Shown here piece by piece: positions 13,309-22,252 of a stretch of DNA of 61,117 bases. Where the stretch lies: assembly GCA_009773315.1 (NCBI GenBank), contig WRPE01000026.1, positions 1-61,117 of the forward strand, in the 5' to 3' direction. Within the stretch, counting starts at the first letter, position 1. The number at the start of each line of letters is the position of its first letter. The stretch comes from Syntrophaceae bacterium. Its GTDB lineage: Bacteria > Desulfobacterota > Syntrophia > Syntrophales > Smithellaceae. The notes under the pieces are model-generated. The model ran no database searches. It saw only the letters and a list, made by a program, of their open reading frames with translations, and was not told the origin of the DNA. The translations under genes and the position numbers were made by a program.

Positions 13309-14394
13309 CTAATTCTTGTGGCATCTGGCGCAATCCCGCACGGTAAATGCTTTGCTTCCGTCGTGACACATGCCACAGGTCTTGCCTTGCAGCATCTCGG
13401 ACATGACCATTTTCGTCTGGCCTTTTTTAACGGCAAACGGTTGAGGATGACATGAATGGCATGAAAAGACCGCATGGCTGGCGTGGTGGAAATAGACATT
13501 TTTCATGGGTGTTTTATATTTCAGCGCATCCGGATAATAAGCCGGAGTTTTGGCGGCCGGCTTATCCTTGTGGCAGCGGTTGCAGTCGTAAAAAGCAGAT
13601 CCGCCTTTGGGGGCATGACAGGTAAAGCAGGATTTGCCGCCCACATGATCATTGAAATCAATTCTGGCATCACTTCGGCGATAGGCAAAGGTTTGCGGAT
13701 GGCAGGCCTTGCAGCCGGTTTTCATCTGATGGGTTTCATGCTTAAATGAAACGGCCTTGGCGCCTTTGCCGTACTTGATCGTTTCCGTCGGAGCCGCGGG
13801 TGACTTCTGATGACACCGGCTGCAATCATTAACGGAAAAACCTTTCTTTCCCTGCTGATCGTGACAGCCGAAACAATATTGCTGCCGGTTGTGATCGACC
13901 ATCTTAATTTTGGCCGCTCCCTCTTTCGGCTGAAACAAAGAATTGTGACAGGTTCGGCAGTTCGCTTTCTTCAGGTGTTTTTCATGATGGAAAACAACAC
14001 CTTTATCGCCCTTGCCCAACGTGACGGACATTTTATAGGCCTGCGTTTCCTTTTGCGGCGCCTGGGCGTTGGAACCGATATGGCAGCGCGCGCATTGCGT
14101 GTCCGACGCAAACGCTTTTTTACCATTGTGACAGGCCCCGCAGTATTTTCCTTTGTACAGGGAGTCCATGTTGAAATCTTTTTTATTCTGGACATGCAGG
14201 GCTTCCATTTCAAACAGCCCGCTATGGCAGGTGGCGCAGGTTGTCCCTTTTTGTGCATGTTGCTCATGGCTGAATATGACGGATTCCAGAGGCTTGGTAT
14301 AAAGGATGCCCTTGGCCGGTTGGACCGCCTCGGCAATGAACGATACGGAATAGATCAAAAGCAGATGGATGATGACAATAAATCGTTTTCGCAT
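13309..14394 (-). CDS. Dodecahaem c7-type cytochrome, four triheme modules
   Basis: A 361-residue exported cytochrome with a Sec signal peptide (residues 1-23) and twelve CxxCH haem sites arranged as four tandem triheme modules. Each module has an 'F.HE.H' axial-histidine start followed by three CxxCH sites, as in VIFSHEQH, VVFHHEKH, VSFKHETH and VYFHHASH. This matches the c7-type triheme 'nanowire' repeat family (TIGR04257-like), which forms elongated electron wires in the periplasm. It lies between the ferredoxin/NrfD pair and resB, suggesting it receives electrons from that quinol module. GGGGAA precedes the ATG, 10 bp after the ferredoxin stop. The c7-type module assignment is clear; the redox partner is inferred. 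Confidence 0.9.
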   Translation of the reverse strand: MRKRFIVIIHLLLIYSVSFIAEAVQPAKGILYTKPLESVIFSHEQHAQKGTTCATCHSGLFEMEALHVQNKKDFNMDSLYKGKYCGACHNGKKAFASDTQCARCHIGSNAQAPQKETQAYKMSVTLGKGDKGVVFHHEKHLKKANCRTCHNSLFQPKEGAAKIKMVDHNRQQYCFGCHDQQGKKGFSVNDCSRCHQKSPAAPTETIKYGKGAKAVSFKHETHQMKTGCKACHPQTFAYRRSDARIDFNDHVGGKSCFTCHAPKGGSAFYDCNRCHKDKPAAKTPAYYPDALKYKTPMKNVYFHHASHAVFSCHSCHPQPFAVKKGQTKMVMSEMLQGKTCGMCHDGSKAFTVRDCARCHKN

Positions 14395-14404
14395 TGTTCC
14401 CCAA

Positions 14405-15157
14405 CTACCCCTTCATATAAAAAATATTGGGCCTGGCGTCTGTTTCTTTTTTCAGAACCCAGACGGGCTTCTGCAACTGGTGAATCAGCTTATACACGCG
14501 ATCCTGCGGATTGGACAGATCGCCGAACACACGGACATCTGCCGGACAGTAGACCGAGCAGGCGACGTTTTTCTCGCCTCGCGAAAGTCTCGTACCAAGG
14601 CAAAAATCACACTTGTCGATAGCGCCTTTTTCCTCATTGAAATACCGGGCATTGTATGGACAGGCCACCATGCAGATTTTGCAGCCGATGCATTTCTTAA
14701 TGTCCATCATCACAATGCCATGATTCTTGTCCTTGTAAGTCGCCGTGACGGGACAGGAGCGGACGCAGGGCGGATTGTTACACTGGTTGCAAAGCACCGG
14801 AATAAATTCTCTTTTCTGCCCGATCGCTTCGGGAACTTCTTTCTCCAGAACCTTGGTGCGCCAACCATAGTCCGGCACGGCATTGGCGGCGATACAGCCT
14901 TTTTCGCATTGGCGGCAGCCGATGCATTGATCTACGCGGATCACCATGGCATAATGCGGCCTATAGGGGTACTTCTGGACAATTGAACCGCGCGGGAATA
15001 CCTTTTCGGCGGCGGATGCCACTGACAAAATCGATCCTCCGGCAAACACGCCGGTGATGGCCAGGCCGATTTTCAGGAATTCCCTGCGATCTATCTCGGA
15101 AATCTTTTCAGATTTCCCAAGCATATTTTCTGTGTGCAGAGTTTTGAAAATCATCAT
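14405..15157 (-). CDS. TAT-exported four-cluster ferredoxin subunit (DmsB/HybA-like)
   Basis: A 250-residue electron-transfer subunit with four cysteine groups typical of four [4Fe-4S] clusters: CIGCRQCEKGC, CNQCNNPPCVRSCP, CIGCKICMVACP, and CDFC with the later CSVYC. A twin-arginine-type signal (DRREFLKIG, then a hydrophobic stretch ending ASAAE) points to a periplasmic location. It overlaps the NrfD gene by 4 bp. Together they form the FeS and membrane part of a menaquinol-oxidising or -reducing complex of the CbcSTU, Nrf or Psr type. No molybdopterin catalytic subunit is encoded nearby, so the partner is more likely the adjacent multihaem cytochrome. Confidence 0.9.
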   Translation of the reverse strand: MMIFKTLHTENMLGKSEKISEIDRREFLKIGLAITGVFAGGSILSVASAAEKVFPRGSIVQKYPYRPHYAMVIRVDQCIGCRQCEKGCIAANAVPDYGWRTKVLEKEVPEAIGQKREFIPVLCNQCNNPPCVRSCPVTATYKDKNHGIVMMDIKKCIGCKICMVACPYNARYFNEEKGAIDKCDFCLGTRLSRGEKNVACSVYCPADVRVFGDLSNPQDRVYKLIHQLQKPVWVLKKETDARPNIFYMKG

Positions 15158-16395
15158 TCGCTCTCCGGCTCTGTGCTTTCAACCGCTTCAGCTTCACGGT
15201 TTTCGCTGAATCCATTAAAAATCTTTTCTCCTAGTAAAAACGCCATGCCGCAGAATCCAATACCGCCAAAAGCCACAAGAATCTCTTTCCATTTGGGAGC
15301 GTAGGTATGCAATTGAGAGAACTCTTTGACACCCATATCCCAATACAGCGGAACAATTTGCGCCATCACCACCAGATCCAGGCGCATAAAGAAAATACTG
15401 AAGATCATCAAAGCGGCGGCAACCGTCATCAATCCAAGCCGCCTGCCTCCGGCAAGCAAAAGCAGAAAGAAGGGAATAATTAAGCCACAGGCCACTTCCA
15501 GCACCCAGAAACTGAATGCATGGGACCCACTGATCGTTTCATGCAGCGTAATCAGTCGGGTTTCGCCACCGGTCGTCATGGTAATCATTTTCCAGATGGT
15601 CAGAAAAGCCACAGCGGCAATCATCAGCATGGCCAACTTACTCACGAGCGCAAGCGACTTTTGTTCGTCTTCATTCATGCCTTGCCCGCGGAGTTTCTGC
15701 GCCACGATACTAAAAAGGATAATGAAAGCACTTCCCGTCATCATCGCCGACAATATAAAATAGACAGGAAGAAAAGGCCCGTACCAGACGTCTCTGCCGC
15801 TCAGCATCGCAAAAATGCCGCCCAGATTGCTGTGCGCCGACACACCGGCAAGAACGCTTAAGAATCCAAAAAAAGCGGCAATCCGATGAGATTCGCGCAT
15901 CAGCAAAACAAATTCCACCGCCATGAATATCATGTACAGCATATACAAAGTGCCCATCCACCAGATGTTTGAGGATAAATTAGCAGAAGTAAACAGATAG
16001 AGCATCATGCGGAAGGGGTTTTCGATCTCCAGGCCGATCACGAGAAACCCTGATATGATCGTAATCAGGGCCAGAAGCACGGAACGCTTGGCAATCGGCA
16101 GAAAATCGCGGTTGCCGAACACGTGTCCGATGGAGGAAACTAGGCAAAGCCCAGTGGACGCCACAACGAAAAAAATATACGTGGCAATTAAGAGCGCCAG
16201 CGGAATTTCGCGGTAGGTGCCATAAGCATGGCGGCTGCCTTCAATAAATAAAGAATAAACGCCTGAAACGACACCGGCGAGAAATAGAACAATAAAAAAA
16301 CTCAAGAAGACAAGATACACCGGGCCGCCGTGTATCACGCGGCCAGCTGCATCCTTAACACACCCCGGAAATGTTGATTTTTCCGAACAACCCAT
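15154..16395 (-). CDS. NrfD/PsrC-like quinol-interacting membrane subunit
   Basis: A 413-residue polytopic membrane protein of the NrfD/PsrC family with about ten hydrophobic helices. In such complexes it exchanges electrons between menaquinol and an attached four-cluster ferredoxin, with no haem of its own. The gene order cytochrome - NrfD - ferredoxin - multihaem c7 resembles the Cbc4 (CbcSTU) type menaquinol:cytochrome oxidoreductases of Geobacter in composition; that parallel is an inference. AAGGAAAAAGATC precedes the ATG. The C-terminal end is rich in glutamate and overlaps the ferredoxin start. Confidence 0.88.
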   Translation of the reverse strand: MGCSEKSTFPGCVKDAAGRVIHGGPVYLVFLSFFIVLFLAGVVSGVYSLFIEGSRHAYGTYREIPLALLIATYIFFVVASTGLCLVSSIGHVFGNRDFLPIAKRSVLLALITIISGFLVIGLEIENPFRMMLYLFTSANLSSNIWWMGTLYMLYMIFMAVEFVLLMRESHRIAAFFGFLSVLAGVSAHSNLGGIFAMLSGRDVWYGPFLPVYFILSAMMTGSAFIILFSIVAQKLRGQGMNEDEQKSLALVSKLAMLMIAAVAFLTIWKMITMTTGGETRLITLHETISGSHAFSFWVLEVACGLIIPFFLLLLAGGRRLGLMTVAAALMIFSIFFMRLDLVVMAQIVPLYWDMGVKEFSQLHTYAPKWKEILVAFGGIGFCGMAFLLGEKIFNGFSENREAEAVESTEPESE

Positions 16396-16432: not shown

Positions 16433-16987
16433 TTAGGGAACAATATAGTCGAACTTGTGGCACTGGGCACAAAGATTCTCCGACTTTGCATGCTGATGAT
16501 GACAGAGATTGCAGTCGGCGGACGTGCCATAGTGCGGCGATTCGTGCGGGTTCTGCGGCTTTACCTTCGCCGTCTTTTCCGCCAGTTTAGCCGTCTCGCC
16601 ATGACAGGCCACGCATTTGCTCATCTCCACCGGCGCGGGCTTCTTAACCTTGCCGTGGCACTGTGCACATTTAACACCTTTGAGCGCATGAAGATGGCTG
16701 CCGGGTATTTTGGTTCTGAGTGTACCCGCGTTTTTTTCACCCGGAATATGGCAGACCAGGCAAGCTTCATAAGGCATCTCCTTGATCGGCACATGACTAT
16801 CGGGGAGAACCTTTTTATCCTTGTGGCAGCCTGCACAATCCCAGGCTTTCACGTCGACAGTTTTGGCCTTGGTAACGGATGCCTTTTTTTCTTTTGGCGC
16901 TGCATAAATGCCGCCTGACAAAACAGCAAATAGCAACACTGCGAGCAAAACGGTCAGCAATGGTTTTTTTATTTTTTTGTTTTTCAT
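16433..16987 (-). CDS. Exported hexahaem c-type cytochrome
   Basis: A 184-residue periplasmic cytochrome with a lysine-rich Sec signal (residues 1-30, ending IYAAP) and six CxxCH sites: CAGCH, CLVCH, CAQCH, CVACH, CNLCH and CAQCH. The pattern (PDSHVPIKEMPYEACLVCH, then HLHALKGVKCAQCH) resembles tetrahaem CIII domains that serve flavocytochrome c fumarate reductases, here as a separate protein. The gene for a haem-free flavin reductase lies just upstream, so this is its likely electron donor. GAGGT precedes the ATG. It is the first gene after the terminator at 17053-17107 and probably heads the operon running down to ccsA. Confidence 0.88.
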   Translation of the reverse strand: MKNKKIKKPLLTVLLAVLLFAVLSGGIYAAPKEKKASVTKAKTVDVKAWDCAGCHKDKKVLPDSHVPIKEMPYEACLVCHIPGEKNAGTLRTKIPGSHLHALKGVKCAQCHGKVKKPAPVEMSKCVACHGETAKLAEKTAKVKPQNPHESPHYGTSADCNLCHHQHAKSENLCAQCHKFDYIVP

Positions 16988-17120: not shown

Positions 17121-18674
17121 TCAACCCCATGGTTTTTCTTTTGCTGCGTTGGTACCAGCAACACGGCCGAAGACAATGCAGTCGGCCATGGCTACGCCGC
17201 CCAGGCGAACAGCGCCATGCACACCGCCGGTCACTTCGCCGGCGGCATAAAGGCCTTTGACGGGTTTGAAATCAAAGCCAATGACTTGGGCGTCTGTATT
17301 AATGTTCAATCCGCCCATCGTATGATGAACCTTGGGCCAGAGTCTCGCGGCGTAGAATGGCCCGACGACGGTCGGTTGGGCATCTTTGAAGATCATACAA
17401 TCAAAATCATCGTCCTTCTTCTTTTCCACATAGGAGTTCCATCGCTCGATTTCCTTCAGGAAGACGTCAACGGGAATGTTATATTCCTTAGCCACGGCTT
17501 CGAGCGTATCAAATTTCTTAATGGCGCCAGCTTCCACCCCCTTCTGCAGCGCCATGGGGAATATCTGCTTATTGACAGCATAAGAATCCCCCATAATGAT
17601 GACCGGGTCGCCGATCAGAATAATGGCGTCAGCCCGTTCCTTGCGGTTTCCCGTTTCCTTAAAGAATCTCTTGCCTGTTTTGGGATTGATCATGGGACCA
17701 TAGCCGACCAAACGTTCGCAGAAGAGCGGTACATATCCGAAGCCTTTTTCATCCGGACTTGTCCAGGGACCAAGTTGAATCCAGTCCATCTGAACATCCA
17801 TCGCACCGGCGATACACGCAGCCAGCAGCGCCTCGCCCGTTGCGCCGGGTTGATTGGTGGATTCAAACCGGTCCGTAAGGCGGGGGTCATGAATCTGACG
17901 CAGCTTGATATCCCGTGAAAAACCGCCAGAACTTAGCACGACGGCCTTCTTTGCTTTGATAAAAGCGGGTTTGCCTGAATTATCATCAGGGAATTTATAG
18001 TCCTTGCGGACTTCGATACCGACGATCCGGCCGTCTTTGTTCGAGAGGAATTTTACCAGCTTGGTGCGAAGCTGAATTTTAACACCAATTTCCTTGGCCT
18101 TTGCCAGCTCCTTGTTAACCAGTTCAGACCCCGAAGAATTGATTGTCCCGTGGGCTCTTTTGACGGAATGGCCACCGTGAAAATTGAGTTTTGCATATTT
18201 AGCGCCGATGTAAGACTCCGTCCATTCCAGAGCTCCCTTGGCGTTGTAAGCCACCATTTTGGCCAGATCGGGATGATTCAGGTATGCACCCGCCCTGAGC
18301 ATATCTTTCAACATTAGCTCAGCTGAATCCTGAACGCCATTTTCCTGCTGCAATTTTGTGCCGGGTGCGCAGAAATCTCCGCCGTTGATGATCGAGTTGC
18401 CTCCGTGGAGGACCATCTTATCGATCACCAGCACGCTGGCTCCCGCGTTTTTCGCTTCAATCGCGGCGGCCAGTCCCGCAAAACCGCTGCCGATCACCAC
18501 GACATCGTATGTATCATCCCACTTCTTCGGCAGGGCATAGCCAGCTGCTTCGGCTTTCGCAGGAAGAAGATTAAGGCCTCCCACCATAGCAGCCGCTGTG
18601 GCCGCTACACCGCCCGTTGTCTTTAAAAAATTTCGTCGTGATAATGTTTTTTCTGATTGATCGTCTTTTTTCAT
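17121..18674 (-). CDS. TAT-exported FAD reductase, flavocytochrome c/fumarate reductase-like
   Basis: A 517-residue periplasmic FAD protein of the fumarate/urocanate/3-ketosteroid reductase superfamily. The twin-arginine signal is LSRRNFLKTTGG. The FAD-binding motif is VVVIGSGFAGLAAAIEA. Near the end, HHTMGGLNIN and GLYAAGEVTGGVHGAVRLGG carry the His and Arg positions of Shewanella Fcc3, and the proton-shuttle Arg is in NRKERADAI. The fumarate-binding 'AHPT' segment is replaced by WIQLGPW, so fumarate may not be the substrate. It has no haem domain; the hexahaem cytochrome downstream may supply electrons. ATG 18674 has AGGAGG upstream; an in-frame TTG at 18689 overlaps that site. It has its own promoter and terminator. 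Confidence 0.88.
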   Translation of the reverse strand: MKKDDQSEKTLSRRNFLKTTGGVAATAAAMVGGLNLLPAKAEAAGYALPKKWDDTYDVVVIGSGFAGLAAAIEAKNAGASVLVIDKMVLHGGNSIINGGDFCAPGTKLQQENGVQDSAELMLKDMLRAGAYLNHPDLAKMVAYNAKGALEWTESYIGAKYAKLNFHGGHSVKRAHGTINSSGSELVNKELAKAKEIGVKIQLRTKLVKFLSNKDGRIVGIEVRKDYKFPDDNSGKPAFIKAKKAVVLSSGGFSRDIKLRQIHDPRLTDRFESTNQPGATGEALLAACIAGAMDVQMDWIQLGPWTSPDEKGFGYVPLFCERLVGYGPMINPKTGKRFFKETGNRKERADAIILIGDPVIIMGDSYAVNKQIFPMALQKGVEAGAIKKFDTLEAVAKEYNIPVDVFLKEIERWNSYVEKKKDDDFDCMIFKDAQPTVVGPFYAARLWPKVHHTMGGLNINTDAQVIGFDFKPVKGLYAAGEVTGGVHGAVRLGGVAMADCIVFGRVAGTNAAKEKPWG

Positions 18675-19061
18675 ATGAGGCCTCCTCAATGTATTGTTCT
18701 TTAAGCAACAGACGGTTAAGAGCTGACAATGCGTGACGTGAGCGTTGAATTACGACATGCTTTGCATATGATGCAGGCGCTCAAATTCAAGATCGCCTAG
18801 TTTGTAATGATATACACCCTGATCTTTATTTTTGTCAACGGCATTCTCATGAAACGTCACAAAACATATCATTTAACAAACACTTGGAATCAGGAGAGAC
18901 TGTGCCGACATTCAGGCAAGATGCATTTTGGGATTGGTTAGATTCTTTTCCAGATCATCCGTGGAAACAATTGGGTCGACAATCTGAATCAACGCCACCA
19001 CCGGTAATAAAATTAAACACAGACAAACTTGTCCATAATTTCTTTTTTTATGCTTTTTCTC
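18675..19061. other. 387-bp gap with no gene
   Basis: It lies between the extKL-type gene and the downstream flavin reductase. It holds the minus-strand promoter at 18809-18838 and the AGGAGG site at 18681-18686. A 62-codon plus-strand frame (18884-19072) has no ribosome site and no family pattern and is not called. Confidence 0.6.
18809..18838 (-). promoter_or_regulatory. Sigma-70 promoter for flavin reductase
   Basis: Minus strand: TTGACA (18838-18833) and TATATC (18814-18809) with an 18-bp spacer, about 135 bp upstream of the flavin reductase start. Confidence 0.5.
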
Positions 19062-20321
19062 CTATCGCTTAATTGGTTTCGGTACTATGATTAAAGCCTC
19101 ATTGGCCTTGGAGCCGTCTTTGATCAGCGTTTCTTTGGTCAGGAAATTATTCCTGTCAACATGACAGGCATCACAGGAACGGGTCCGATCCGTTCGCTTG
19201 CGAACATTGTGGGCAGGGGTATCCCAGTAGTTGGGCAGCGCGTCAAAGTTTTCCATTTTGATACCGTCCTTGGCAAAAGTGTCGCGAACCGTCGGCACAA
19301 GCCGCAAAGTGGTCAAAACCTTTTTATTCCTTGGGCTCAAACCCAGGATCATTTGCGGTTTGGCTTTCGCGCCTTCACCTGCGTGGCACTGCTGACAGTT
19401 GCGGTATTCGCCGCCGGAATGACAGCCATAACAGCTCACCTTACCCGCATGGGTCTGATGCGACACCCTGGCTGCCGGATTTTTCTCACTGCCCGGTTTA
19501 TGGCAGTTGCGGCAGGACGGGCGGTCTTTCACCTGGTTTTTTGAAGTATACGCTATGCCATCGCCATGAAGTTGTTCCTTCTTGTGGCAGTCCACACACA
19601 GCATGCCCTTCTGATAATGGACATCCGGCGCGCCGCCGTATTCTCCCGTAAACTCGGGATAGACCCTGCCGCCGTGGCACGATGAGCATGTTTTGCCCTC
19701 ATCTTTCCTCACGAACTTGTGCTTGGCCAACAACCCGGTGCTGATACCGCCCACCGCCGGGGACTTCACATGACAATCTCCGCAAGACGCGTGGCAACTG
19801 CGGCATGATTTTTCAAAGACTTTCCCATCAAATTTCTTCAGCTCTTCTTTGGAGAAACGCGGCATCACGCCATTTCTCTGGCCAGCCGTTGTATAATGGA
19901 GCGACTTTGCATACTTGTCCGTCACCTGCTTGTGGCACATCGCGCAGTTGGACATATTGTCCGATGGTCTTTTGACCAGGCCTTTATGAGCCTGTTCCTT
20001 GCTTAAAATTCCACCGTTTCCCTGATGGCACTGTGGACACGCCAGGATAAAATGTTGATCTTTCTTGAGAAGGCCACGATCTACAATATATCCCTTATAC
20101 ATTTCTTCCGGCCGAACTGGCGGAGGAGCGCCCGCTCACCCCTCGCCTTCTTCTGCGTGAAGTAAAGGAGGCGCCTTGTATAGCGACTTTATCAGAGATT
20201 CGTTCGTATGACAGGTGACACAACTGCTGCTATCAACAGCAGCCAAGATTGCCTGAGTGAAAAACAGTTGCAAAAAAGCGATAAACAGAAGGCTGAATAC
20301 AAATCGTCGTTGATTCCTCAT
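19062..20321 (-). CDS. extKL: 11-haem c-type cytochrome with in-frame UGA, ExtKL-type (seleno)protein
   Basis: Read through an in-frame TGA at 20138-20136, this is one 419-residue exported cytochrome. It has a Sec signal (MRNQRRFVFSLLFIAFLQLF onward, ending ILAA) and the first haem site CVTCH at residues 34-38. Residue 62 is the UGA, in EEGEG-U-AGAPPP. Ten further CxxCH sites follow, including the doublet CRSCHASCGDCH. The parts before and after the UGA are in the same frame, 11 open codons separate the TGA from the next ATG (20102), and that ATG has no signal peptide. A hairpin typical of bacterial SECIS follows the UGA. From memory, NCBI describes a '(seleno)protein ExtKL' multihaem cytochrome family from Geobacter ext/selenite-tellurite reduction loci that was once split at such a UGA. 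GAGG lies 5 bp before ATG 20321. A nonsense mutation is the alternative. Confidence 0.72.
20103..20138 (-). promoter_or_regulatory. Candidate SECIS element after in-frame UGA
   Basis: Directly after the UGA (20138-20136), minus-strand bases 20127-20119 (TCCTCCGCC) can pair with 20113-20104 (GGCCGGAAGA), leaving one bulged C and one mismatch. They close a 5-nt loop AGTTC (20118-20114). The loop begins 17 nt after the UGA and has a G in its first two positions, both as expected for bacterial SECIS hairpins (E. coli fdhF: about 18 nt). The pairing was done by eye. Confidence 0.55.
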
Positions 20322-20689
20322 AAAAACCTCATTTAAATGATAATCATACGAAATATAACTTATTGGCGATTCCGAGCGAACCATCTGTATTTATGATATA
20401 ATATCTTTTATCTGAAAACAACCCTTTTGTTCCAACAGTCTCTTCCTGTTACGAACTTCATCAGATAAACGTCAATATGTCTCCAAAATAATCTGATTAT
20501 CCATGCAATACTTGGGTCGATCGGATATCTGTCGATCTGATATCTTGCATTATTTTCTGTTTATGCTACAGTTACTGCAAGGTTTATGTTTATGTATATG
20601 AAGTCATCTCGTTATCACCGTTCGTCGTTATGGCAAGAAGATGTTCTTTAGCCATCTAACCACAAAAAATAAGATATCGGGAGGAAATT
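20322..20689. other. Divergent promoter region between two reductase genes
   Basis: A 368-bp AT-rich gap between the divergent extKL-type gene and the second flavin reductase. It contains the repeat and palindrome cluster at 20485-20556 and the GGGAGG ribosome site at 20679-20684. No ORF of note. Confidence 0.7.
20485..20556. promoter_or_regulatory. Tandem 15-bp repeat inside an inverted repeat
   Basis: GTCGATCGGATATCT (20516-20530) is followed at once by GTCGATCTGATATCT (20531-20545), with one difference. Around them lie inverted arms AAAATAAT (20485-20492) / ATTATTTT (20549-20556) and ATGCAA (20503-20508) / TTGCAT (20545-20550). The position between divergent redox genes suggests an operator for a shared regulator. 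Confidence 0.5.
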
Positions 20690-22252
20690 ATGGCAGAAGA
20701 CAAAAACATCACAAAATCATTAACCAGACGGAATTTTCTAAAAACCGCAGGCACAGCGGCAGCAGTCGCCGGACTGGCTTCGAGTGGCGTGGCTTTAACG
20801 CCATGGAAGGCGGAAGCAGCTACCCTGCCGAAAAAATGGGACGAAACGTATGATGTCGTCGTTATCGGCAGCGGGTTTGCAGGCCTTGCCGCCGCCTATG
20901 AGGCAAAAAAAGCGGGGGCATCCGTCGTCGTTTTGGAAAAAATGCGGACACCCGGCGGCAATTCGATTATCAACGGCGGTGTTATTTCTGCGGCAGGTTC
21001 ACCCATGGAAGAAAAAGCAGGAATCAAGGATTCACCGGAACTGCTGCTCAAGGACATGTTGACAGCCGGTCTAAATTTAAACCATGTGGAGCTCGCCAAA
21101 ATGGTTGCCGACAATTCCAATGCCACCGTTCAGTGGACGATGACGGAACTCGGTGTTCAGTATAAGGATAAGCTGTCGCAGGAAGGCGGACACTCAGTTC
21201 CCCGGATGTACAGCACTTACAATCAGAGCGGTTCGGCCATTGTCACCCAGCAACTGGTCAAACTCAAAGCACTGGGCGTCGAACCCAAAACGCAAAGTTT
21301 TCTGACTCAGATTTACCGCGATGCAGACGGCCGGGTTAAAGGCGTTCAGATCCGGGATAAGTACGTTTTCCCGAATGCAGACAGCGGCAAGTTGAAAAAC
21401 ATAAAAGCCAGAAAAGCCGTGGTCCTGGCCACGGGAGGTTTCGGAAACGATGTTGCGTTCAGAACCATTCAGGATCCCCGCCTGACGGCTGACTTCCCGA
21501 GTACGAATCAGCCCGGTGCAACCGCGGAAAGCTTACGCGAAGCTCTGCGCATCGGCTGCACGCCGCTGCAGCTGTCCTGGATTCAGCTGGGTCCCTGGGG
21601 CAGCCCGGACGAAAAAGGCATGGGGCTGTCGCCTTTCTTTGCCCAGCTCTGCGCCGCCATGTACGGCCTCTGGATTGACACAAAAACAGGCAAACGTTTC
21701 GTTAACGAATTGGCCGACCGCAAAATCCGCGCCGATGCCATCATTCGCGTCGGCAACAAATGTATCGCCTTTACGGATGCCTATGGCTATTCTTTAGGCG
21801 AGAAGCTGATTGCGGAGTCTCTTCCGAAACTGATGGAAAGAGGCGTGGTCAAAAAATATGAAACCCTTGAGGAAATGGCGGCGGCTCATAATTGCCCTGT
21901 GGAATCCCTCAAAGAGGAGATCGAAAAATTCAACAAGGGTGTTCTGGCGGGCAAAGATGCCGAATGGGGCAGATATTTGCAAAAAAACCAAAAACCTCTG
22001 GGCCCCGGCCCTTACTATGCTCTGCGGCTTACGCCCAAGATTCATCACTGTATGGGCGGTGTCCACATGAATGTCAAAGCGCAGGCCCTAGATATCATGG
22101 CGGATAAACCCATTCCCGGACTTTACGCGGCCGGCGAAGTTACAGGTGGCGTGCATGGTGCAGTCCGTCTGGGCAGTTGTGCTACACTCGATTGCCTCAT
22201 TTTCGGCCGGATCGCGGGTCAAAACGCGGCCAAGGATAAAAGCTGGAGCTAG
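20690..22252 (+). CDS. Second TAT-exported FAD reductase, flavocytochrome c-like
   Basis: A 520-residue paralogue of the reductase at 17121-18674. TAT signal SLTRRNFLKTAG, FAD motif VVVIGSGFAGLAAAYEA, then MRTPGGNSIINGG, and C-terminal HHCMGGVHMN and GLYAAGEVTGGVHGAVRLG. As in the paralogue, the Fcc3 'AHPT' segment reads WIQLGPW, and the Arg-containing helix is DRKIRADAI. The two proteins share long blocks (TYDVVVIGSGFAGLAAA, QPGATAE/GE, LGPW.SPDEKG). It has no haem domain, so it needs a separate cytochrome donor. A strong GGGAGG ribosome site precedes the ATG, and a bidirectional terminator follows. It is divergent from the extKL-type gene. The natural acceptor is unknown: an unsaturated carboxylic acid other than fumarate is the best guess. 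Confidence 0.87.
   Translation: MAEDKNITKSLTRRNFLKTAGTAAAVAGLASSGVALTPWKAEAATLPKKWDETYDVVVIGSGFAGLAAAYEAKKAGASVVVLEKMRTPGGNSIINGGVISAAGSPMEEKAGIKDSPELLLKDMLTAGLNLNHVELAKMVADNSNATVQWTMTELGVQYKDKLSQEGGHSVPRMYSTYNQSGSAIVTQQLVKLKALGVEPKTQSFLTQIYRDADGRVKGVQIRDKYVFPNADSGKLKNIKARKAVVLATGGFGNDVAFRTIQDPRLTADFPSTNQPGATAESLREALRIGCTPLQLSWIQLGPWGSPDEKGMGLSPFFAQLCAAMYGLWIDTKTGKRFVNELADRKIRADAIIRVGNKCIAFTDAYGYSLGEKLIAESLPKLMERGVVKKYETLEEMAAAHNCPVESLKEEIEKFNKGVLAGKDAEWGRYLQKNQKPLGPGPYYALRLTPKIHHCMGGVHMNVKAQALDIMADKPIPGLYAAGEVTGGVHGAVRLGSCATLDCLIFGRIAGQNAAKDKSWS

Follow-up and report, generated by a model that had tools for sequence, protein, structure and literature searches.

Octahaem tetrathionate reductase (OTR) is a sulphur-compound reductase, and a relative of the enzyme also reduces nitrite (PMC6449678). 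In TsdA, an S-thiosulphonate is formed on a haem-ligating cysteine (PMC4423706). In Dethiobacter, a SirA-like multihaem protein, upregulated in thiosulphate-grown cells of one strain, is encoded together with rhodanese-domain proteins in clusters 5-T and 4 (PMC10376724). A cytochrome has also appeared in searches for new readings of stop codons: the five-haem Geobacter cytochrome was the sole new candidate from a 2007 survey of 191 genomes (PMC1914089). More recently, a 2026 review has tabulated 119 prokaryotic selenoprotein families, its Table 1 citing the families of Haft and Tolstoy 2025 (PMC13188914).

The DNA analysed here, called the window, is a stretch of 61,117 nucleotides from a Syntrophaceae bacterium. 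One of its genes, judged by sequence, bears the marks of a selenoprotein, and we refer to its product as the selenocytochrome. An earlier reading of the window, made from the sequence only, had proposed a probable ExtKL-type selenoprotein with selenocysteine (Sec) at residue 62. Taken as a whole, the explanation to which we lean somewhat is that the gene encodes an exported 11-haem c-type cytochrome with Sec62 that constitutes a family of its own and acts as a rhodanese-linked periplasmic terminal reductase.

The selenocytochrome is not named among the 119 families, by family names and model accessions rather than by sequences, in the available part of the 2026 table, and the available text of the deep-Sep paper (PMC12013277) contains 0 occurrences of the word "cytochrome". 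Among the matches listed from the open-licence literature, no paper was concerned with this family. Pfam recognizes cytochrome c7/c3-type pieces in the protein, which reaches no NCBIfam family cut-off and has only sub-cut-off matches there, to ExtN, ExtO, ExtM, NrfB- and NrfH-type proteins and a triheme domain. The gene adds a probable selenoprotein family absent from the lists that were checked. Genes of this kind are expected to be truncated at the stop by automatic annotation.

The gene and its in-frame TGA

The features of the gene, in the order of its transcription, are as follows.

20327-20330, minus strand: GAGG resembling a Shine-Dalgarno sequence, 5 nt before the ATG
19062-20321, minus strand: predicted 11-haem selenocytochrome gene, 419 aa, with ATG at 20321 and stop TAG at 19064-19062
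20241-20321, minus strand: signal-peptide-like hydrophobic leader, by inspection
20136-20138, minus strand: TGA read as selenocysteine, residue 62, in the motif GEG-U-AGAPPPV; TGA in 65/65 homologues of the first search that have a stop here
20107-20124, minus strand: SECIS-like hairpin with stem UCCGCC / GG(C)CGGA and loop AGUUC at 20118-20114

With TGA read as U, positions 20321-19062 form a single frame of 419 residues that contains one TGA only and 11 CxxCH motifs, of which the first precedes this codon and the other ten follow it, in agreement with the frame, the coordinates and the haem count of the sequence-only reading. Sec62 would lie in the sequence GEGUAG, between the first two haem motifs. 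All 11 CxxCH motifs are invariant in the 57 rows of alignment A1, which comprises 54 of the 65 Sec loci of the first homologue search, the window and two Sec-less homologues, and also in the 65 rows of alignment A4, which were picked by hand with the Tyr forms left out and reach down to 27% identity. The N-terminal signal peptide proposed earlier looks like one by inspection alone, and the ten-haem piece by itself (19062-20102) is, as had been said, without a signal-peptide-like leader.

The first homologue search retained 80 of 108 relatives. A stop stands at the aligned site in 65 of these 80 homologues, and in all 65 it is TGA, never TAA or TAG; of the remaining 15, two have Pro (L081 and L083), one remote homologue (L087) has Cys, and 12 do not cover the site or are loosely aligned there. 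When 395 genomes from the phylum were searched with a profile, 52 of them gave 58 matches in total, 50 with one TGA and 8 without (5 partial, 2 pieces of one frame-broken copy, and 1 Tyr form). Among 257 genomes from the class of one Sec-less genome, 56 gave a total of 59 matches. One TGA is present in 38 of these matches and absent from 21, of which 12 reach the site (11 Tyr, 1 Cys) and 9 are partial. No other stop was listed inside the matches of either search. Recurrence of the TGA in many separate assemblies also excludes a mapping artefact at this codon. The residues that flank the site are conserved as well: G61, A63 and G64 are invariant in A1, and in A4 G61 is invariant, with residue 62 and G64 kept in at least 90% of the rows.

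The loci gathered in all contain 130 distinct Sec ORFs, which fall by motif into the clades UAG (79), UGG (29) and UGV (22), with ten CxxCH motifs after Sec in 126 ORFs and nine in 4. Because a TGA behind a CxxCH was the condition for entering this set, the uniformity of the TGA within it is no evidence in itself, unlike the TGA-only stops in the first 65 loci and the two genome searches, which do count as evidence. A further copy of the gene (L134, G324:C28:17415-18448) has a broken frame in which the Sec motif is still visible, and is either a decaying duplicate or an assembly error.

The 15 Sec-less homologues that cover the site carry Tyr in 11 cases (one a fragment), Cys in 2 and Pro in 2, so that the Cys expected of Sec-less homologues in the sequence-only reading is found in a minority only. 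With Tyr or Pro in most of them, Sec is dispensable in those branches. In a quick FastTree tree of 143 rows, which gave long-branch warnings and was used only to judge the coherence of the motif clades, the labels change 6 times against a possible minimum of 5, with 1 change for Tyr, 1 for Pro and 2 for Cys. The Tyr-for-Sec lineage consists of L132, L183-L189 and L191-L193 (the class of G339), whose chains are fused to a tandem rhodanese, L193 being a fragment. Two bins hold a Sec form together with a Pro paralogue in which the motif reads GPAG (L053 with L081, and L047 with L083).

The genome to which the window belongs encodes the Sec machinery in full, a point on which the sequence-only reading had left its proposal to depend: selA (604 bits), selB (363 bits), selD (371 bits) and a tRNA-Sec (71.7 bits), which ARAGORN also calls as tRNA-SeC with anticodon TCA. 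Presence of selA does not discriminate between genomes: it passes the cut-off in 42 of the 46 that hold a TGA homologue and in 22 of the 24 others. SelD of the same genome (C50:7440-8366, L099) carries an in-frame TGA in the motif GUACKI and is thus itself a selenoprotein by codon. A second in-frame TGA further upstream probably lies outside the selD gene, and a second match to the tRNA-Sec model in this genome (C16:64274-64365, L003; 48.6 vs a gathering threshold of 47 bits) may be a different tRNA whose variable arm is long.

The hairpin downstream of the TGA

The stem of the window's hairpin starts 11 nt after the UGA and the loop 17 nt after it, with G at loop position 2. The hairpin proposed earlier exists, with its 5-nt loop and its G at position 2, except that the 17 nt given for its start is the distance to the loop. 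The folding energy of the window's 50 nt is unremarkable (z +0.82; 159 of 200 shuffles at least as stable), so the single sequence proves little and the comparison across the family carries the case. Rfam, at the gathering threshold, gave 0 matches over the whole window.

For that comparison, a hairpin was counted when a G stood within the first two loop bases, and the control was a set of synonymous shuffles that keep the protein and the codon usage. A hairpin of this kind is present in 129 of the 130 Sec ORFs vs 41.6 expected, and the excess holds in each clade: 78/79 in UAG (24.3 expected), 29/29 in UGG (7.1) and 22/22 in UGV (10.2). A smaller earlier run of the test gave the same picture (78/79 vs 26.0, and 11/11 vs 3.1). 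Among the Sec-less homologues the count is 4/15 vs 1.8 expected, made up of 2/11 for Tyr (1.0 expected), 0/2 for Pro (0.1), the hairpin being absent by this criterion from both paralogues L081 and L083, and 2/2 for Cys (0.7); both Cys homologues pass, but with different loops.

Covariation of the paired bases was examined by clade. With 20 sequences from the UGG clade, 93.6% of cells are paired vs 78.5 after shuffling, 5 of the 7 pairs have changed on both sides, a number reached or exceeded in 4 of 500 shuffles, and the covariation score is 0.433 vs 0.181 shuffled, with 0 of 500 shuffles as high. The stem occurs there as GGCUCC/GGAGCC, GGAGCC/GGCUCC and GGCGCC/GGCGCC, while the protein alternates between APLEP, EPLAP and APLAP. 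The UAG clade, which includes the window's gene, shows modest covariation: 91.9% of cells pair, 2 of 6 pairs have changed on both sides, and the score of 0.058 is exceeded by two slid controls (0.080 and 0.071). In 78 of the 79 sequences of this clade, the four-fold sites at codons +4, +8 and +9 have entropies of 0.27, 0.00 and 0.10; none of the 144 background sites falls below 0.87. The excess over shuffles, the covariation in the UGG clade and the constancy of the silent sites together are strong evidence of selection acting on the RNA at the hairpin, and a SECIS-like hairpin just downstream would direct the reading of UGA 62 as Sec.

If the TGA were instead an ordinary stop, the locus would have two products: a short exported peptide with one haem and, perhaps by re-initiation at the ATG at 20102, a protein with ten. 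A GGAAG does stand just upstream of that ATG, and TGA ends 13 of the 43 long ORFs in the window. c-type haems are attached outside the cytoplasm, however, and the downstream piece is leaderless, which argues against an ordinary stop, as do the conserved residues around the site, the complete avoidance of TAA and TAG in 65 loci, the 15 homologues that cross the site with a sense codon, and the hairpin count in the Tyr and Pro homologues, which is near the chance rate (2/13); we regard this explanation as very improbable. A pseudogene, a sequencing error or a reassigned TGA code, as the interruption of an otherwise long frame could suggest, has a negligible probability in view of the identical codon and site in 65/65 loci from separate records, the many TGA-terminated ORFs in the window and the canonical Sec codon of SelD. 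Plain stop, pseudogene and reassigned code were rejected on the TGA conservation across genomes, the hairpin excess, the SelD Sec codon and the TGA-ended window ORFs. It is almost certain that the TGA at 20138-20136 encodes selenocysteine, with Sec inserted at residue 62, and the selenoprotein of the sequence-only reading is strongly supported by the TGA conservation, the hairpin and the Sec machinery.

Gene context and proposed role

Among the neighbours in the first 66 loci, the largest cluster (45 loci) is that of a two-domain rhodanese (PF00581), which usually lies just downstream on the same strand. A rhodanese is adjacent or fused in 107 of the 125 Sec loci with enough flank, although the homologues are related and the rhodanese profile was built from neighbours in the first loci themselves, so that these counts are not independent. 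For the 130 Sec ORFs, the rhodanese is downstream on the same strand in 94, fused C-terminally in 9 and upstream in 3; one ORF has a weak N-terminal match (L139), 18 have none, and 5 have too little flank. One locus has an opposite-strand rhodanese nearby, and 9 loci have a farther-off match. The median distance to the matched rhodanese domain is 29 nt (92 non-overlapping cases).

Fused open frames are 706-761 residues long and occur with Sec, Tyr and Cys alike at the site. The second rhodanese domain of the fused chains keeps its Cys in 20 of 20. The first domain has Asp at the usual Cys in 11 of 11 Sec-less fused chains and in 6 of 9 Sec fused chains. No rhodanese lies beside the selenocytochrome gene in the window or in its two nearest relatives (L018 and L019), and the window's genome holds a rhodanese orthologue of 73% identity on another contig. 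From the same-strand adjacency, and from the fusion in one lineage, the selenocytochrome family is very probably partnered with the two-domain rhodanese.

The neighbours in the window itself are the following.

13309-14394, minus strand: multihaem cytochrome, cluster c7; a relative is fused in-frame upstream of the selenocytochrome in 7/65 loci
14405-15157, minus strand: 4Fe-4S subunit, TtrB/DsrO/NrfC-like, all below cut-off
15154-16395, minus strand: NrfD-type membrane subunit (PF03916), possibly the quinol side of the electron path
16433-16987, minus strand: c3-type multihaem cytochrome (PF14537), cluster c11, in 9/66 loci
17121-18689, minus strand: flavocytochrome c-type FAD protein with Tat signal, cluster c2, in 11/66 loci, not widely kept
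20690-22252, plus strand: second flavocytochrome c-type FAD protein, divergent

The module of NrfD, 4Fe-4S and multihaem subunits recurs in part of the family's range, and fusion to the selenocytochrome is through the multihaem part; one fused chain (L124) has 17 haems. The flavin-reductase neighbours noted in the sequence-only reading are present in the window, but their cluster occurs in only 11 of 66 loci, and the widely kept partner is the rhodanese. A cassette that recurs downstream in L036, L043, L044 and other loci consists of a 660-aa multihaem cytochrome, a double-rhodanese protein and a multihaem-cytochrome b fusion (clusters 3, 13 and 8, in 16, 10 and 11 loci). According to their record titles, which may be imperfect as most records are metagenome bins, the homologues come from Deltaproteobacteria (Syntrophaceae, Smithella and Geobacteraceae), Spirochaetes and Bacillota; homologue L055 is in the record of Geobacter sp. 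OR-1, a laboratory strain.

Beyond the 11 haem-motif histidines, nine more His are invariant in 57/57 rows of A1. Eight of these nine are also invariant in A4, where the ninth is present in 90% of the rows or more. Because only nine extra invariant His are available for 11 haems, two haems may lack a His second ligand; if each extra His serves a haem, these two could be active sites. The second structure model has a pLDDT of 83.6. Both models are poor in the Sec loop, where residues 54-67 have pLDDT values below 50 in model 1 and the block means are 58 and 62 in model 2. In a fold comparison with 47 chains aligned, the best match was 1sp3 (Z 8.7, 252 residues, rmsd 4.4), a Z near the tool's middling range and a match that begins at residue 87 and leaves the Sec loop outside; the next row has Z 4.4, and other octahaem and pentahaem enzymes lie at Z 2.5-4.4. 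Foldseek against the PDB gave no match for either model at E up to 0.001, and a profile search of the PDB gave weak cytochrome hits only (best 5ze8_A, 8.6e-6).

These features suggest that the protein may work as a periplasmic terminal reductase. Quinol electrons would enter through NrfD/Fe-S or cytochrome b partners and pass along the haem wire to an active site formed by Sec62 and a haem without His as second ligand. The rhodanese would hand sulphane sulphur, derived from thiosulphate, polysulphide or tetrathionate, or possibly selenium or tellurium from their oxyanions, to Sec62 to give a mixed Se-S adduct, which the haems would reduce with release of sulphide. That the selenocytochrome reduces sulphur species, with sulphane sulphur handled at a Sec-haem site, is suggested by the rhodanese link, the fold likeness to 1sp3 and the TsdA precedent, and we give this role a little under an even chance. 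Sec as a direct haem ligand is rather doubtful, and a complete Sec-haem sulphur reductase, with the selenolate on or over a c-type haem that lacks a His second ligand and with sulphur (or Se/Te) fed by a dedicated rhodanese, is more doubtful still. To our knowledge, such an active site is known nowhere else, and a selenolate haem ligand would be new.

A role like that of the Ext proteins, in which the cytochrome would detoxify or respire selenite, tellurite or arsenate rather than sulphur compounds, is the alternative that survives best, though we hold it to be unlikely. It is favoured by the sub-cut-off similarity to ExtN, ExtO and ExtM, by the remote relatives L088 and L096, which score 326.5 and 213.5 bits against ExtM (cut-off 800), and by the resemblance of one partner rhodanese to ExtH (63.8 bits, cut-off 200), in a system where loss of ExtI impairs selenite and tellurite reduction (PMC5877670). 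However, that system's own selenoprotein, ExtKL, is a different protein with no match in the genome. None of the five window neighbours that were scanned reaches any ext cut-off. Less probable is an electron conduit serving extracellular electron transfer, where Sec would be either structural or a potential-tuning haem ligand, with no chemistry of its own: family members do occur, by record titles, in Geobacter-type organisms, and some branches have lost Sec to Tyr or Pro and retained the haems, but the linkage and fusion to a rhodanese would be unexpected for a plain wire. A peroxidase-like or thiol-redox defence, in which Sec would reduce peroxide or persulphide with haem electrons, fits the frequent use of Sec in peroxide and thiol chemistry (PMC13188914), but the commonest neighbour is a sulphurtransferase and we judge this role the least probable of the three.

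If the reductase reading holds, selenium, multihaem electron transfer and sulphur transfer would be joined in one unit, and the protein would be a candidate, accessible to experiment, for the respiration of sulphur compounds by syntrophic and metal-reducing bacteria. The occurrence of Sec, Cys, Tyr or Pro at this one site provides a natural experiment on the role of Sec near haem.

Comparison with known systems

ExtKL resembles the selenocytochrome in being a c-type multihaem cytochrome with one in-frame TGA from the same phylum, and its cluster encodes the rhodanese-like ExtH (PMC5877670), just as the commonest partner of the selenocytochrome is a rhodanese. ExtKL differs in having 5 haems and a Sec nearer the C-terminal end, well after the haems. 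In nine of the ten ExtKL loci read there are 5 CxxCH, and Sec falls at residue 310-360 of the open frame, in the motif PDGUPTPN; the tenth (L205) was caught in a wrong frame and not counted. Among the 395 genomes of the phylum, the ExtKL model NF040886 is over its cut-off in 39. The model finds nothing in the window's own genome and is not listed against the selenocytochrome at E up to 1. In a profile-profile comparison, ExtKL and A4 share 23 columns around one CxxCH (probability 57.6%, E 1e-4). The ExtKL type assigned in the sequence-only reading is therefore set aside: the model match is missing, there are 11 haems instead of 5, and Sec lies elsewhere in a different motif. Sec-less ExtKL paralogues over the cut-off, with no in-frame stop, occur in G027:C12, G281:C10 and G203:C132, two of them adjoining in G027.

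ExtN and ExtM have a haem-core segment in common with the selenocytochrome, at scores far under the cut-offs (NF040967, E 9.6e-11, 41.1 of 200 bits; NF040943, E 1.2e-7, 30.5 of 800 bits). The GSU2204 family CXXCH selenoprotein (NF041027) is likewise a Sec protein with haem-type motifs, described as an MtrB/PioB-type outer-membrane barrel (PMC13188914); NF041027 is not listed against the selenocytochrome at E up to 1, and the same holds for TIGR04315, the OTR model. One Sec-bearing TIGR04315 member (WP_331457571.1), annotated in GenBank, is mentioned in the same review. OTR (1sp3) is the nearest solved fold of the second selenocytochrome model, with 8 haems in place of 11 and a fold match that starts after Sec62. 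With TsdA and SoxA the likeness is one of analogy only, with no homology claimed: there, a haem-side Cys handles sulphane sulphur, and TsdA is a di-haem protein with Cys where the selenocytochrome would use Sec.
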